A stretch of DNA of 46,156 nucleotides from Alphaproteobacteria bacterium SS10 (GTDB taxonomy: Bacteria > Pseudomonadota > Alphaproteobacteria > TMED2): NCBI GenBank assembly GCA_019192455.1, contig JAHCML010000003.1, positions 816,685 through 862,840 of the forward strand, written 5' to 3'. Positions 40,722-45,294 of this stretch are shown here, one piece after another (position 1 is the stretch's first letter; the number at the start of each line of letters is the position of its first letter). Made by a program: the position numbers and the translations under genes. The notes under the pieces are model-generated. The model ran no database searches. It worked only from the letters and a program-made list of their open reading frames with translations, and was not told where the DNA came from.

Positions 40722-42062
40722 CTAGGGGGGAGGTTTGCGGGCTATACAAGTCGTGCAGTGAACCTCAACACCCTCAATAACCGGCGCAATGTCTATAGCT
40801 GGGTTCAGCAACATTACCGACTTTAGGCTGGGCAAGCTGTTTAAGACTGAAAAGTCACGAATGCCGGTCCCGCCGATCGCCAGCTTTTCCAGATTATCGA
40901 AACCTTTGATCCACTGAAGCTTAGTTAGGAACCGCCCACCAACAAAGAGCTCAGTAACTGAGTTCAGCCTACTAAGGCCATCGACGTCTTCATCGTCGAC
41001 ATTGGCAAGCGTCAGTTTCTGAAGAGACTCAGAAGGTTTTGCATCGCCAAAAACCACATCATTATGTTCGGCAATAAACAGTTCGGTAATAGCCGGAGCT
41101 GTGATGATGGGCTCAATATCGACGTTCAAGCTTTGGAGCACTAACAGGCGCAACTGCGGCAGCTTTGAAAACGCGGATGCATCATCATCGAATAGAGTGT
41201 TGCCGGTCCAGATGCTGGCCAAGTCGGGGTATCCAGAAATCGCTGACCAATCTTGAACACTGCTTTTGTAAAGGCGCAGTTCAACGGCGTCAGCGTGCAC
41301 TTCTCCTACATTGATGTTCTGAGAATGCGTCTCTTGAATGGTTATGATCTTACGCCCATCTCTCATGTTGATTTGGGGCTCAGGGCTATCAACTTGTTGG
41401 ATGTTCTCTGGCTCCGCGTCCGGCCAATCCGTCGATAGACGCTCCAAATTGGCGAACTGCTCCTCATCGACAGGGCTCTTGAATGTCGATGCATGAATTC
41501 TCAGGTGTCGAAGCGATCTGAGGCAATACAGCTGTTTTGGATCTACGTTCGAGGCATCATTAATAGCTAGTCTTTCAAGGTTCAGTAGGCTGCAAAGGTA
41601 CTTGTCGAAGCCCTCTTGTGGGTACCGCAGGCTGATCCGTGAGAGGTTTTCAAGCTGGCTCACGCCGCTCAATTCAATCGGCTCGAAGAACCTGATTTCT
41701 AGAGACCCAAGGAACTCATAATCCGACAGGCTGACTAGATGAGGTTGTGCGGCATCCCAATACTTCTGCAGGCCATGGTTGATCCTGATCTGGAAGGAGG
41801 GATTGATGTGGTCCCCTTTATCTTCCCAGCTTATGGCCGCAGCCTCCAAACCGGCCAAAGCCTGCTCAATCTCACGCACGTAATAACGTGGTCCGGGCAT
41901 GCCTGGATTGAGCACTGGCTGCCCACTGTTCTCTTCAAGTGTTGGTGCGCGTTCGGGCCCGATGCGGGAGAAGTCGAAGTCTTCGGCTTTGGCGGGTGCG
42001 CCCAGTAACAAGGCCGCCGCTGCAATTGCCGCTATGGCGATGGATTTCAGCTCGCTTTTCAT
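40722..42062 (-). CDS. Secreted leucine-rich-repeat-like protein
   Basis: The 446 residues start with a signal peptide (KSIAIAAIAAAALLLGAPAKA, cleavage near AKA-ED). Irregular leucine-rich repeats span most of the rest, for example LENLSRISLRYP, LLNLERLAIND, LRSLRHLRIHA, LPQLRLLVLQSL, FDNLEKLAIGG and LPSLKSVMLLNP. It ends in a VHCTTC motif with two cysteines. ATG start with TAGGG about 8 nt upstream. Base composition is visibly more AT-rich than the neighbours, and it stands alone between unrelated genes, suggesting recent acquisition. LRR proteins usually bind other proteins; the partner is unknown. Confidence 0.75.
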   Translation of the reverse strand: MKSELKSIAIAAIAAAALLLGAPAKAEDFDFSRIGPERAPTLEENSGQPVLNPGMPGPRYYVREIEQALAGLEAAAISWEDKGDHINPSFQIRINHGLQKYWDAAQPHLVSLSDYEFLGSLEIRFFEPIELSGVSQLENLSRISLRYPQEGFDKYLCSLLNLERLAINDASNVDPKQLYCLRSLRHLRIHASTFKSPVDEEQFANLERLSTDWPDAEPENIQQVDSPEPQINMRDGRKIITIQETHSQNINVGEVHADAVELRLYKSSVQDWSAISGYPDLASIWTGNTLFDDDASAFSKLPQLRLLVLQSLNVDIEPIITAPAITELFIAEHNDVVFGDAKPSESLQKLTLANVDDEDVDGLSRLNSVTELFVGGRFLTKLQWIKGFDNLEKLAIGGTGIRDFSVLNSLPSLKSVMLLNPAIDIAPVIEGVEVHCTTCIARKPPP

Positions 42063-42175
42063 GCTGGCACCCTATCACAACCGCACATTATTTTGTGTTC
42101 TTAAGCGCCCAGGGCAGGGCTGGCTTGTTGGTTGTGGGCTTGCTCTCTTCGGTTTGATTTCGCACACTCGCTCTT

Positions 42176-42235
42176 ATGAACACCGGCACCCCATATCCGC
42201 GCCTGATTGCGCGAATTATTGGCCCGGTCGCTTAG
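42176..42235 (+). CDS. Putative ileS leader peptide
   Basis: A 19-codon frame reads MNTGTPYPRLIARIIGPVA. Three of its last nine residues are Ile, all encoded by ATT (42206-42208, 42215-42217, 42218-42220). The TAG stop (42233-42235) lies in the loop of the first leader hairpin. No other start codon exists in this frame back to a stop at 42155-42157. A Shine-Dalgarno sequence is not evident, which is the main weakness. It would report charged tRNA-Ile supply to the terminator downstream. Confidence 0.5.
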   Translation: MNTGTPYPRLIARIIGPVA

Positions 42236-42305
42236 ACTAGCGGCCGGGAGCGCGTTCATGCGCGCGCTGGGGCGACACAACGCCGATTGTGGCCCGTTTT
42301 TGTTT
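42223..42305 (+). promoter_or_regulatory. Candidate transcription attenuator of ileS
   Basis: Three structures follow in order. Hairpin 1 has a 10-bp stem CCCGGTCGCT/AGCGGCCGGG (42223-42248), one wobble and loop TAGACT. Hairpin 2 is AGCGCG/CGCGCT (42249-42268). A terminator-like stem then pairs GGGC-GA-CACAA with TTGTG-GCCC (42270-42295, GA bulged) and runs into GTTTTTGTTT (42296-42305). No plus-strand gene lies upstream within 1.4 kb that would need a terminator here, and ileS starts 134 bp further on. An antiterminator could pair GTCGC (42227-42231) with GCGAC (42272-42276), but I cannot fix it by eye. The remaining gap 42063-42438 shows no convincing promoter. Confidence 0.55.
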
Positions 42306-42438: not shown

Positions 42439-45294
42439 ATGACTTCTGAGTCTAATACCGAACTTAAAGACACTGTTTTCCTGCCAACCACCGACTTTCC
42501 CATGCGCGCCGGGCTACCGAAGAAGGAGCCGGAAATCCTCGCCTGGTGGGAGGAGATCGACCTCTACAAAAAGCAGCGTGAGGTTGCCAAGGGGCGGGAG
42601 AAATTCGTCCTGCACGATGGCCCGCCATATGCCAATGGCAACATCCATATCGGCCACGCGGTGAATAAGATCCTGAAGGATGTGGTGACCCGCAGCCAGG
42701 GCATGCTGGGCAAGGATGCCGTCTATGTGCCGGGCTGGGACTGTCACGGCCTGCCGATCGAATGGAAGATCGAGGAGCTGTATCGCTCCAAGGGTAAGAA
42801 TAAGGATGACGTGCCAATCCTGGAGCTGCGTCAGGAATGCCGGGACTTCGCCGCCAAATGGATTGAGATCCAGGCCGGTGAGTTTAAGCGTCTGGGCGTG
42901 GTCGGTGATTGGGATGCCCCATATCTGACCATGACCAATGATGCCGAGGCGACCATCGTTGCCGAGATCTTCAAATTCGTCGGCAATGGCGGCCTCTATA
43001 AAGGCGTGAAACCGGTCCTCTGGTCCGTGGTTGAGAAGACCGCGCTCGCCGATGCTGAGGTTGAGTATCACGAACACCAAAGTCAGATGATCTGGGTCCG
43101 CTTCCCGGTGGCGAAGGCCAGCGTGCCAGCGACCGAGGGCGCCAGCGTCGTCATCTGGACAACCACCCCCTGGACCATCCCGGGTAACCGGGCAACCGCC
43201 TATGGCGAAGACTTCGACTATGTCGTTGTTGAGGTGACCGAGCTGGGTGAGGGCAGCCACGCGCAGCTGGGTGAGAAGTTTGTTCTCGCTGCCGAGCTGG
43301 TTGGTGCCGTAACGGAACAGGCGCGCATCGCCGAGGTTAAGGAGCTGGCCCGGTTCAAGGGTTCAGAACTCGCCGGTACGGTTTGCCGTCACCCACTGCA
43401 TGCGCTCGATGACTATTACGGCTTCGATGTGCCAATGCTGCCCGGTGACTTTGTCACGACCGAACAGGGCACGGGCATCGTCCATATCGCCCCTGGCCAT
43501 GGTGAGGATGACTTCAAGCTGGGTAAGGAACACGGTATCGCCGTGCCGGAGACGGTGGCCGAGGATGGTCGCTATTACGAGCGTGTGGCGCTGTTCGCAG
43601 GTGAGACCGTGCTCGACCAGAAGGGTAAGACCGGCACCGCCAATAAGGCGGTGATGGCTAAGCTGATCGAGGCTGGCGGCCTCCTAACCCAAGGGCGGTT
43701 GAAGCACTCTTACCCGCATTCCTGGCGCTCCAAGGCGCCGCTGATCTTCCGCACCACGCCGCAATGGTTCATCTCGATGGAGACGAACAACCTGCGTGAG
43801 AAGGCGCTATCGGCGATCAAGGAAACCCGCTGGGTGCCTGAGAGTGCCGAGAACCGCATCTACTCCATGGTGGAGGCGCGGCCAGATTGGTGCATCAGCC
43901 GTCAGCGCGCCTGGGGCGTGCCGATTGCGCTGTTTGTCTCCAAATCCGACGGCAAAGTGCTCGACGACCCCACCGTCATGAAGCGGATTGAGGATATCTT
44001 CCGTGAGGAAGGTTCCGATGCCTGGTTCGCGCGGGATGCCCAAGATTTCCTCGGCAATGAATACAACGCCGATGATTTCGAGCAGGTGCGCGACATCGTT
44101 GAGGTCTGGTTCGAGAGTGGCTCAACCCACGCCTTCGTCCTAGAAGCGCGGGACGATCAACGCTGGCCAGCTGACCTCTATCTTGAGGGCTCTGACCAGC
44201 ACCGGGGTTGGTTCCACTCCTCCCTGCTTGAGAGCTGCGGCACACGGGGACGGGCGCCTTACAATGCGGTCCTGACCCATGGCTTTGCGCTCGATGAGCA
44301 GGGGCGGAAGATGTCCAAATCCCTGGGCAACACCACGGCACCCCAGGATGTGATGAAGCAATATGGTGCCGACATCCTGCGCCTCTGGGTGATCTCCTCC
44401 GACTATCATGAGGATATCCGGATCGGTAACACGATCATCAAAGGTCAGGCCGACCTCTACCGTCGCCTCCGTAACACCCTGCGTTGGACGCTGGGTAGCT
44501 TGCACGGCTTCGATGGCTCGGAGCGGGTTGCCCCTGCTGATATGCCGGAGCTTGAGCGTTGGGTGCTGCATCGTCTGACTGAGCTGGACGAGCTGGTGTG
44601 CGATTGCCTTGAGAACTTTGACTATCAACGCATGTTCCGCGAGCTGCATGATTTCTGTGCCAAGGACCTATCGGCGTTCTATTTCGACATCCGGAAGGAT
44701 GCGATCTATTGCGACCGCCCAGATTCCTTGCGTCGTCGTTCGGCCCGCACCGTGCTGGATAAGGTCTTTGACTGCCTGACCACCTGGCTGGCGCCGGTGC
44801 TGTGCTTCACCGCTGAGGAAGCCTGGCTTACCCGCCATGGCAAGGAAGCGGGCAGTGTGCATCTGCAGACTTTTGTCGATGTACCCGCAGAGTGGCGAGA
44901 TGAGGCTCTGGCGGCCCGTTGGGCCGATGTCCGCAAGGTTCGCTCGGTAATCACTGGCGCGCTTGAACTGGCCCGGAAGGAGGAGAAGATCGGTTCTTCC
45001 CTTGAGGCGAAGCCGTCGGTTTTCGTCACGCCAGAACTGGCAAAGGCCGTTGAGGGCATTGATTTCGCCGAGGTCGCCATTACATCGGGCGTCGAGTTGA
45101 CGAGTGGTGCGGCACCTGGCGACGCCTTCACCCTAGAAGAGGTGGCGGGCGTCGGCGTGCTGGCCAATGCCGCTGAGGGTGAGAAGTGTGATCGTTGCTG
45201 GCAGGTGTTGCCAGAGGTTGCACCGGTTGATGGCGGCAAGCTCTGCAATCGCTGCGCTGATGCGGTCGCAATCATTCGCACGGCAGCTGAATAA
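42439..45294 (+). CDS. ileS: Isoleucyl-tRNA synthetase
   Basis: Charges tRNA-Ile and edits valine. The 951 residues show the class I motifs [11 protein letters not shown] (HIGH) and [10 protein letters not shown] (KMSKS), the editing domain ([20 protein letters not shown]), the anticodon-binding region and the C-terminal zinc site CDRC ... CNRC, which marks the bacterial-type (IleS1) enzyme. The start ATG has only a weak ribosome site. Upstream is a candidate leader-peptide attenuator; downstream lspA follows after 14 bp. Confidence 0.97.

Follow-up and report, generated by a model that had tools for sequence, protein, structure and literature searches.

The region upstream of ileS in the window, which is the complete stretch of 46,156 nucleotides that was analyzed, probably harbors a ribosome-mediated attenuator of ileS, which responds to charged tRNA-Ile and is built on a module conserved in Alphaproteobacteria. 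Translation of a short leader peptide probably decides on transcription of ileS. The computational evidence comprises the leader open reading frame (ORF) and its specifier codon, the hairpin, the position of the stop codon, the promoter geometry, the agreement between specifier codon and downstream gene, and a switch in the fold of the window RNA. Conditional leader-peptide attenuation of ileS had been proposed in an earlier, sequence-only reading of this DNA, and the conserved module, the leaderless geometry, and the stall-dependent fold indicate that this proposal was largely right. If true, Alphaproteobacteria possess a common and compact coupling of the levels of branched-chain aminoacyl-tRNAs to the genes for synthetases and for biosynthesis. 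For sensing, a single codon placed in fixed surroundings would suffice, which bears on the number of regulatory codons that an attenuator needs, and many short, unannotated leader ORFs would be explained by the module.

Leader region of ileS and its predicted fold switch

The leader is located between a divergent gene and ileS (Table 1). Direct reading of the sequence confirmed a 19-codon frame with three ATT codons for Ile (42206-42208, 42215-42217, and 42218-42220) and the end of this frame within hairpin 1, which has a stem of 10 bp and a loop of 6 nt; the TAG stop codon occupies loop bases 1 to 3. It also confirmed the second hairpin, the bulged stem, and the T-rich tract between the divergent gene and ileS. 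The bulged terminator contains an inner CACAA/TTGTG pairing and a T-rich tract at positions 42297-42305, and it lies 134 nt before ileS. The second hairpin was not conserved among the relatives. The fold energy of the whole region was unremarkable (z of −1.26), and simple promoter and terminator scanners reported neither a terminator nor a promoter in the leader region. It is conservation that lifts the site above chance.

Table 1. Features of the ileS leader region and its neighborhood in the window
Feature	Position	Strand	Description and basis
Divergent ORF	40722-42062	−	Divergent from ileS
Candidate leader promoter	42140-42168	+	−35 TTGCTC at 42140-42145, 17-nt spacer, −10 CACACT at 42163-42168, 7 nt to ATG
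Leader peptide ORF	42176-42235	+	MNTGTPYPRLIARIIGPVA*; ATG at 42176, TAG at 42233-42235, 19 codons; read from sequence
CGA-ATT-A block	42212-42218	+	Arg codon CGA, specifier ATT at 42215-42217, next codon starts with A
Hairpin 1, 10 bp	42223-42248	+	Arms CCCGGTCGCT (42223-42232) and AGCGGCCGGG (42239-42248)
Candidate RNA polymerase pause site	42249-42260	+	U42259 is the 11th nt past hairpin 1, followed by G
Second hairpin	about 42250-42266	+	GCGCG-TTCAT-GCGCGC; fold
Bulged terminator	42270-42305	+	GGGC (42270-42273) and GCCC (42292-42295); fold and partition function
ileS	42439-45294	+	Isoleucyl-tRNA synthetase, 951 aa; translation; regulated gene in this reading

The probability of the terminator stem in an RNA ending at 42305 was calculated by partition function, depending on the position at which the leading edge of the ribosome frees the RNA. 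This probability was 0.98 to 0.99 when the free RNA began at 42222-42226 and also when it began at 42246, which corresponds to a ribosome at the stop codon. It was 0.36 to 0.5 with the leading edge at 42227-42228 and 0.03 to 0.05 at 42229-42241, because only in about this last range does hairpin 1 release its 3' arm for pairing with the GGCCCG of the terminator. Folding thus supplied an antiterminator, which had been considered not to be fixable by eye. When the P site contains CGA and the A site the ATT at 42215, the edge is at about 42227-42229, and the terminator probability is 0.5 to 0.05, depending on the length of the footprint; for a stall one codon past this ATT, folding gave 0.03. A stall right at the specifier ATT is, therefore, predicted to give a partial to full switch, depending on the footprint. 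When positions 42228-42269 were shuffled and the terminator was kept, a switch of equal amplitude appeared in 1 of 300 cases.

We infer that translation, stalling, pausing, and termination would proceed in the cell as follows. RNA polymerase would start at or next to the leader AUG, and a ribosome would load on the leaderless 5' end. Hairpin 1 would form and probably hold the polymerase about 11 nt downstream. With ample Ile-tRNA, the ribosome would pass CGA-ATT-ATT and reach the stop codon within the loop of hairpin 1, after which the terminator would fold and transcription would end. With scarce Ile-tRNA, the ribosome would stall at the ATT specifier codons after the slow CGA and cover the 5' arm of hairpin 1; the free 3' arm would pair with the 3' strand of the terminator, and the polymerase would continue into ileS. 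CGA was a slow Arg codon in an assay with the Salmonella his leader (PMC4046918), so that its place in front of the specifier may favor positioning of the ribosome at this site.

Conservation of the module and the start of the leader transcript

The 600 nt upstream of ileS were inspected in 80 alphaproteobacterial loci from 80 species. The comparison genomes lie outside the order and family of the source genome, and the ileS orthologues were 54 to 67% identical. Alignment of these upstream regions revealed strong conservation of the Ile codon, hairpin 1, and the stop codon, in agreement with the sequence-only reading. The module in the relatives is CGA-ATT-ANN-NNC-hairpin, with the stop codon usually inside the loop. 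An exact CGAATTA, followed 4 bases on by a CCC-GGG hairpin, preceded ileS in 25 of the 80 species; loci added from whole genomes brought the collection to 38 sites, and a later curated set contained 97 sites, 43 of them at ileS. At the 38 sites, CGAATTA was always in the frame CGA ATT ANN of a short ORF ending with RI[I/T/S]xP[V/A/I]L*. A C-terminal RI[ITS]xP[VA][LA]* with the stop at +21 or +24 from CGA was found in 40 of the 43 ileS leaders, and a stop codon within 39 nt of CGA was in frame at 68 of the 97 sites, compared to 6 and 39 for the other frames.

The codon following ATT always began with A and encoded Ile, Thr, Ser, Asn, or Arg, indicating that this A is held at the nucleotide level. 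The ATT sites were gathered with an ATT-containing model and the pattern CGA[ACG]TTA, so that selection accounts in part for CGA and A being invariant. Fairer tests were a two-mismatch search and a pattern in which any codon could follow CGA, and the two-mismatch search of the remaining ileS loci yielded one plausible variant only, L109. Hairpin 1 displayed covariation in 32 sequences, with 39 double-changed cells versus 11.5 in shuffles and 93.8% of the cells paired. A covariance model constructed from 20 other genomes, with the window left out, assigned 31.5 bits and an E value of 1.2e-6 to the window site, and nothing else in the window was significant with this model (next match, E of 0.85). 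The first model, which had been built with the window site, gave a single significant match in the source genome (E of 8e-8; next, 0.89). The window site contains all parts of the module, CGA-specifier-A, the 4-nt spacer, and the covarying 10-bp hairpin.

The Ile-rich character of the frame, on which the earlier proposal was based, needs to be restricted. The ATT at 42215-42217, always right after CGA, is conserved, but the other two ATT codons vary between relatives. Multiple Ile codons were consequently rejected as a conserved feature, only the codon after CGA being invariant, and Ile codons upstream of the specifier were not significantly enriched over leuA leaders.

The module was absent from two thirds of the compared alphaproteobacterial ileS genes. 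At module-less loci, for instance, L010-L018 and L028-L032, ileS was mostly situated close behind a ribF-like gene, as judged by eye from the table of loci. A ribF-like motif test alone was positive for 24 of 54 module-less and 5 of 25 module-bearing ileS loci. It seems that ileS is either co-transcribed with ribF or under the control of its own attenuated promoter.

A TTGAC-like box, a spacer of 16 to 18 nt, and a TANNNT-like box preceded the ATG in 80 of the 97 leaders. In 46 of these, the distance between the end of the −10 box and the ATG was 7 or 8 nt; random anchors gave a flat distribution. This indicates that the leader mRNA is probably leaderless and starts at the AUG, which also explains the missing Shine-Dalgarno site. 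The observation that the leader peptide has no ribosome site was thus correct and is accounted for by the leaderless geometry of the related leaders. The statement that there is no clear promoter held in part: TTGCTC-17-CACACT-7-ATG agrees weakly with the consensus, has a poor −10 box, and was missed by a generic scan, but the family geometry is present in the window. Judged from the sequence, the transcript in the window probably starts at the A of the ATG at 42176.

Specifier codon and genes downstream of the module

Run against the whole class, the first model gave matches in 142 of 385 genomes at an E value of ≤0.1, roughly 90 of them with an E value of <0.001. Many strong matches were away from ileS and had ilvA (threonine ammonia-lyase), operons with cimA (citramalate synthase), or ORFs of about 100 aa downstream. 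The ilvA, cimA, and ACT-like downstream genes fit isoleucine metabolism, with the exception of a DUF4743/NUDIX gene. A phylum-wide sample added ileS leaders from further alphaproteobacterial families; all 18 matches among the 299 genomes of the phylum were in Alphaproteobacteria and none outside of this class.

Among the 97 curated sites, those with ATT were assigned to ileS (43 sites), ACT-like genes including operons with ilvA and cimA (39 sites), and ilvA (1 site), with 1 further ATT site left unassigned, those with CTT to leuA (10 sites) and an ACT-like gene (1 site), and those with GTT to ACT-like genes (2 sites). The gene leuA was downstream of 10 of 11 CTT sites and 0 of 84 ATT sites (Fisher p of 1e-12, a figure inflated by related species); the sites behind this count come from many families. 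When the codon after CGA was left free in the pattern, almost only ATT was recovered, and both well-formed CTT sites were upstream of leuA. When CGACTTA with a hairpin was searched for specifically, nine loci were recovered, eight of them directly upstream of leuA; the ninth carried tandem CTT and GTT modules before an ACT-like gene, with an ATT module further on. In leuA leaders, Leu codons made up 0.28 of the 8 codons that precede CGA, versus 0.09 (p of 2e-6). Across the family, the specifier codon agrees with the gene that follows, which indicates that the codon after CGA acts as a single specifier codon, and the short leader ORF in the window likewise carries codons cognate to the regulated pathway. 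In a search of 190 genomes for GTT and TTT specifiers, GTT occurred in two genomes of one genus only, and TTT (Phe) was rejected as a specifier because no site was found.

On balance, we lean slightly toward regarding the module as a portable alphaproteobacterial cassette, in which one codon in the fixed context CGA-NTT-A, together with a pause-type hairpin and on a leaderless mRNA, specifies the branched-chain aminoacyl-tRNA to be sensed. A change of one base would retarget the cassette from Ile (ATT) to leuA (CTT) and, in tandem arrangements, to Val (GTT), and this would be a T-box-like specifier logic carried out by the ribosome. An exchange of ATT for CTT should then switch the sensed amino acid.

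The ORFs of about 100 aa after Ile-type modules (L120, L143, L144, and L157-L186) contain TACFSVxAxADPGVMPRVLELFAKRGLVP... and have weak ACT_AHAS_ss and ACT_5 matches, which are below the Pfam cut-off. A search for relatives with a solved structure found none, and one relative is annotated as a hypothetical protein in Azospirillum. The DUF4743/NUDIX hydrolase gene recurs after the ACT-like gene (L151, L154, L162, L167, L173, L175, L178-L180, and L183), which suggests an unrecognized link to isoleucine metabolism. Two loci (L181 at 905/953 and L227 at 1500) contain a CTT and then a GTT module in one reading frame and, further downstream, a second ACT-like gene preceded by an ATT module. Three related genomes possess tandem ATT modules about 180 to 200 nt apart before an ACT-like gene (L131, L133, and L134, at about 1306-1324 and 1506). 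Between the leuA module and leuA, a second short ORF with GGLSRLMxG is located at two loci (L223 at 1682 on the reverse and L224 at 1680 on the forward strand) and is possibly another leader peptide.

Known systems, alternative explanations, and the output stage

Ribosome-mediated leader-peptide attenuators of the enterobacterial type, those of the trp, his, ilv, and leu operons, are textbook knowledge. They have in common with the module a short leader ORF with cognate codons and a pause-type hairpin overlapping the end of the ORF, and with the window also the stall-dependent choice between antiterminator and terminator. In contrast to them, the module uses one specifier codon fixed after CGA instead of a run of codons and a leaderless mRNA, one cassette serves different amino acids by codon change, and the terminator is not general. 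Proteobacterial attenuators have reportedly been surveyed by Vitreschak et al. in 2004.

Attenuators or leader coding sequences (CDSs) described in Alphaproteobacteria concern trp, ilvIH, cysS (PMC8632094), trpS, and ileS (PMC4117421). The uORFC-8-2 motif upstream of cysS in Rhodobacterales is a predicted ribosome-mediated attenuator (PMC8632094), which shares with the leader in the window an aminoacyl-tRNA synthetase gene, the occurrence in Alphaproteobacteria, tandem cognate codons in the first stem, and a U-run at the 3' end. It concerns, however, Cys and cysS only, and no CGA-NTT-A cassette is reported for it. The leader in the window has no Cys codon and precedes ileS, and does not belong to this motif. 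In Caulobacter, a ribosome-profiling study named leader CDSs for ileS (CCNA_03934), trpS, and ilvIH, and 375 mRNAs of this species are leaderless (PMC4117421). CCNA_03934 is likewise a small CDS upstream of ileS, a likeness by description, and it appears in that main text as a negative control only, without a mechanism, motif, or regulon. The statement that no ileS case of this form was known has to be modified accordingly: the Caulobacter leader CDS had already been named, but the main text gives no mechanism for it. The leader ORF trpL of the Sinorhizobium meliloti attenuator (PMC10117765) is alphaproteobacterial and leaderless too, but senses Trp, and is likened here by description. T-box riboswitches of ileS in Actinobacteria (PMC1262725) share the single specifier codon and the control of ileS but bind the tRNA directly and have no translated leader. 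The open-access literature yielded no account of a CGA-NTT-A module, of one shared by ileS, ilvA, cimA, and leuA, or of a swapped single specifier. Ribosome-mediated attenuation is known; the conserved one-codon-specifier cassette spanning ileS and leuA is, to the extent of this search, undescribed.

A T-box-like riboswitch, with uncharged tRNA pairing directly with the specifier codon and no ribosome involved, is very improbable in the window. In its favor, one specifier codon sets the amino acid, and some members have the UU of this codon as a bulge in the extended stem; but a tRNA-only switch needs neither a start codon nor a frame nor a stop codon, all of which are conserved. Moreover, there was no Rfam match in the window region (E of ≤5) or at 14 related loci (E of ≤1), the T-box covariance model included, so that T-box and other Rfam families were rejected. 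It is very unlikely that the site serves for autoregulatory binding of IleRS to its own mRNA with the ORF being incidental. An invariant 7-mer plus hairpin could form a binding site, but the block also precedes ilvA, ACT-like genes, and operons with cimA and, in a version differing by one base, leuA, and the identity of the codon follows the amino acid. A functionless chance hairpin and ORF between divergent genes would agree with the unremarkable overall fold energy, but conservation, covariation, and no other significant match in the same genome leave a negligible probability for this explanation, which the comparative data exclude.

Evaluation of the output needs to consider that a closed hairpin followed by a U-tract was present in 9 of the 43 ileS leaders. 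Intrinsic terminators in all ileS leaders were ruled out by this number, and conservation of the T-tract terminator, which the sequence-only reading had suggested as a check, was not general. A family-wide 2:3 pairing of the 3' arm of the hairpin with downstream sequence was rejected as well, being below permuted controls (z of −2.7). Both results indicate that the terminator/antiterminator output, the alternative pairing set by the position of the ribosome that folding yielded in the window, is not a family-wide feature. It is possible, albeit doubtful, that the same Ile-tRNA-sensing leader acts by an output other than intrinsic termination, with ribosome stalling or release remodeling an extended stem around hairpin 1 (CGAA and downstream UUCG) and in this way altering Rho access, RNA stability, or translation of ileS, and that the terminator-like stem in the window is incidental. 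The rarity of U-tract terminators in the family is consistent with this, as are 40 sites with a downstream TTCG versus 14.7 in shuffles, the UUCG of which can pair with CGAA around the hairpin, and a stem extension around CGAA of 1.38 versus 0.85 ± 0.10 in permuted controls. Leaders before ACT-like genes point in the same direction, as their frames often continue past the hairpin to a stop at +87 to +108, near the start of the next gene. On the other hand, the stall-dependent switch in the window was sharp and rare among shuffles, and a pause signal at a fixed distance is another possible meaning of the UUCG enrichment.

For attenuation by a ribosome that senses charged tRNA-Ile, the preferred reading, the sensing end is well supported, and the output end may differ between genes. 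Downstream of the hairpin, 96 sites showed T at the 11th base with a frequency of 0.54 versus a background of 0.26, YG at base 12, and A at bases 11 to 14 with a frequency of 0.04 to 0.05 versus 0.16. A spacing of 11 nt is that of hairpin-stabilized pauses such as the his pause of Escherichia coli, and U42259 in the window is positioned such that RNA polymerase may pause there.
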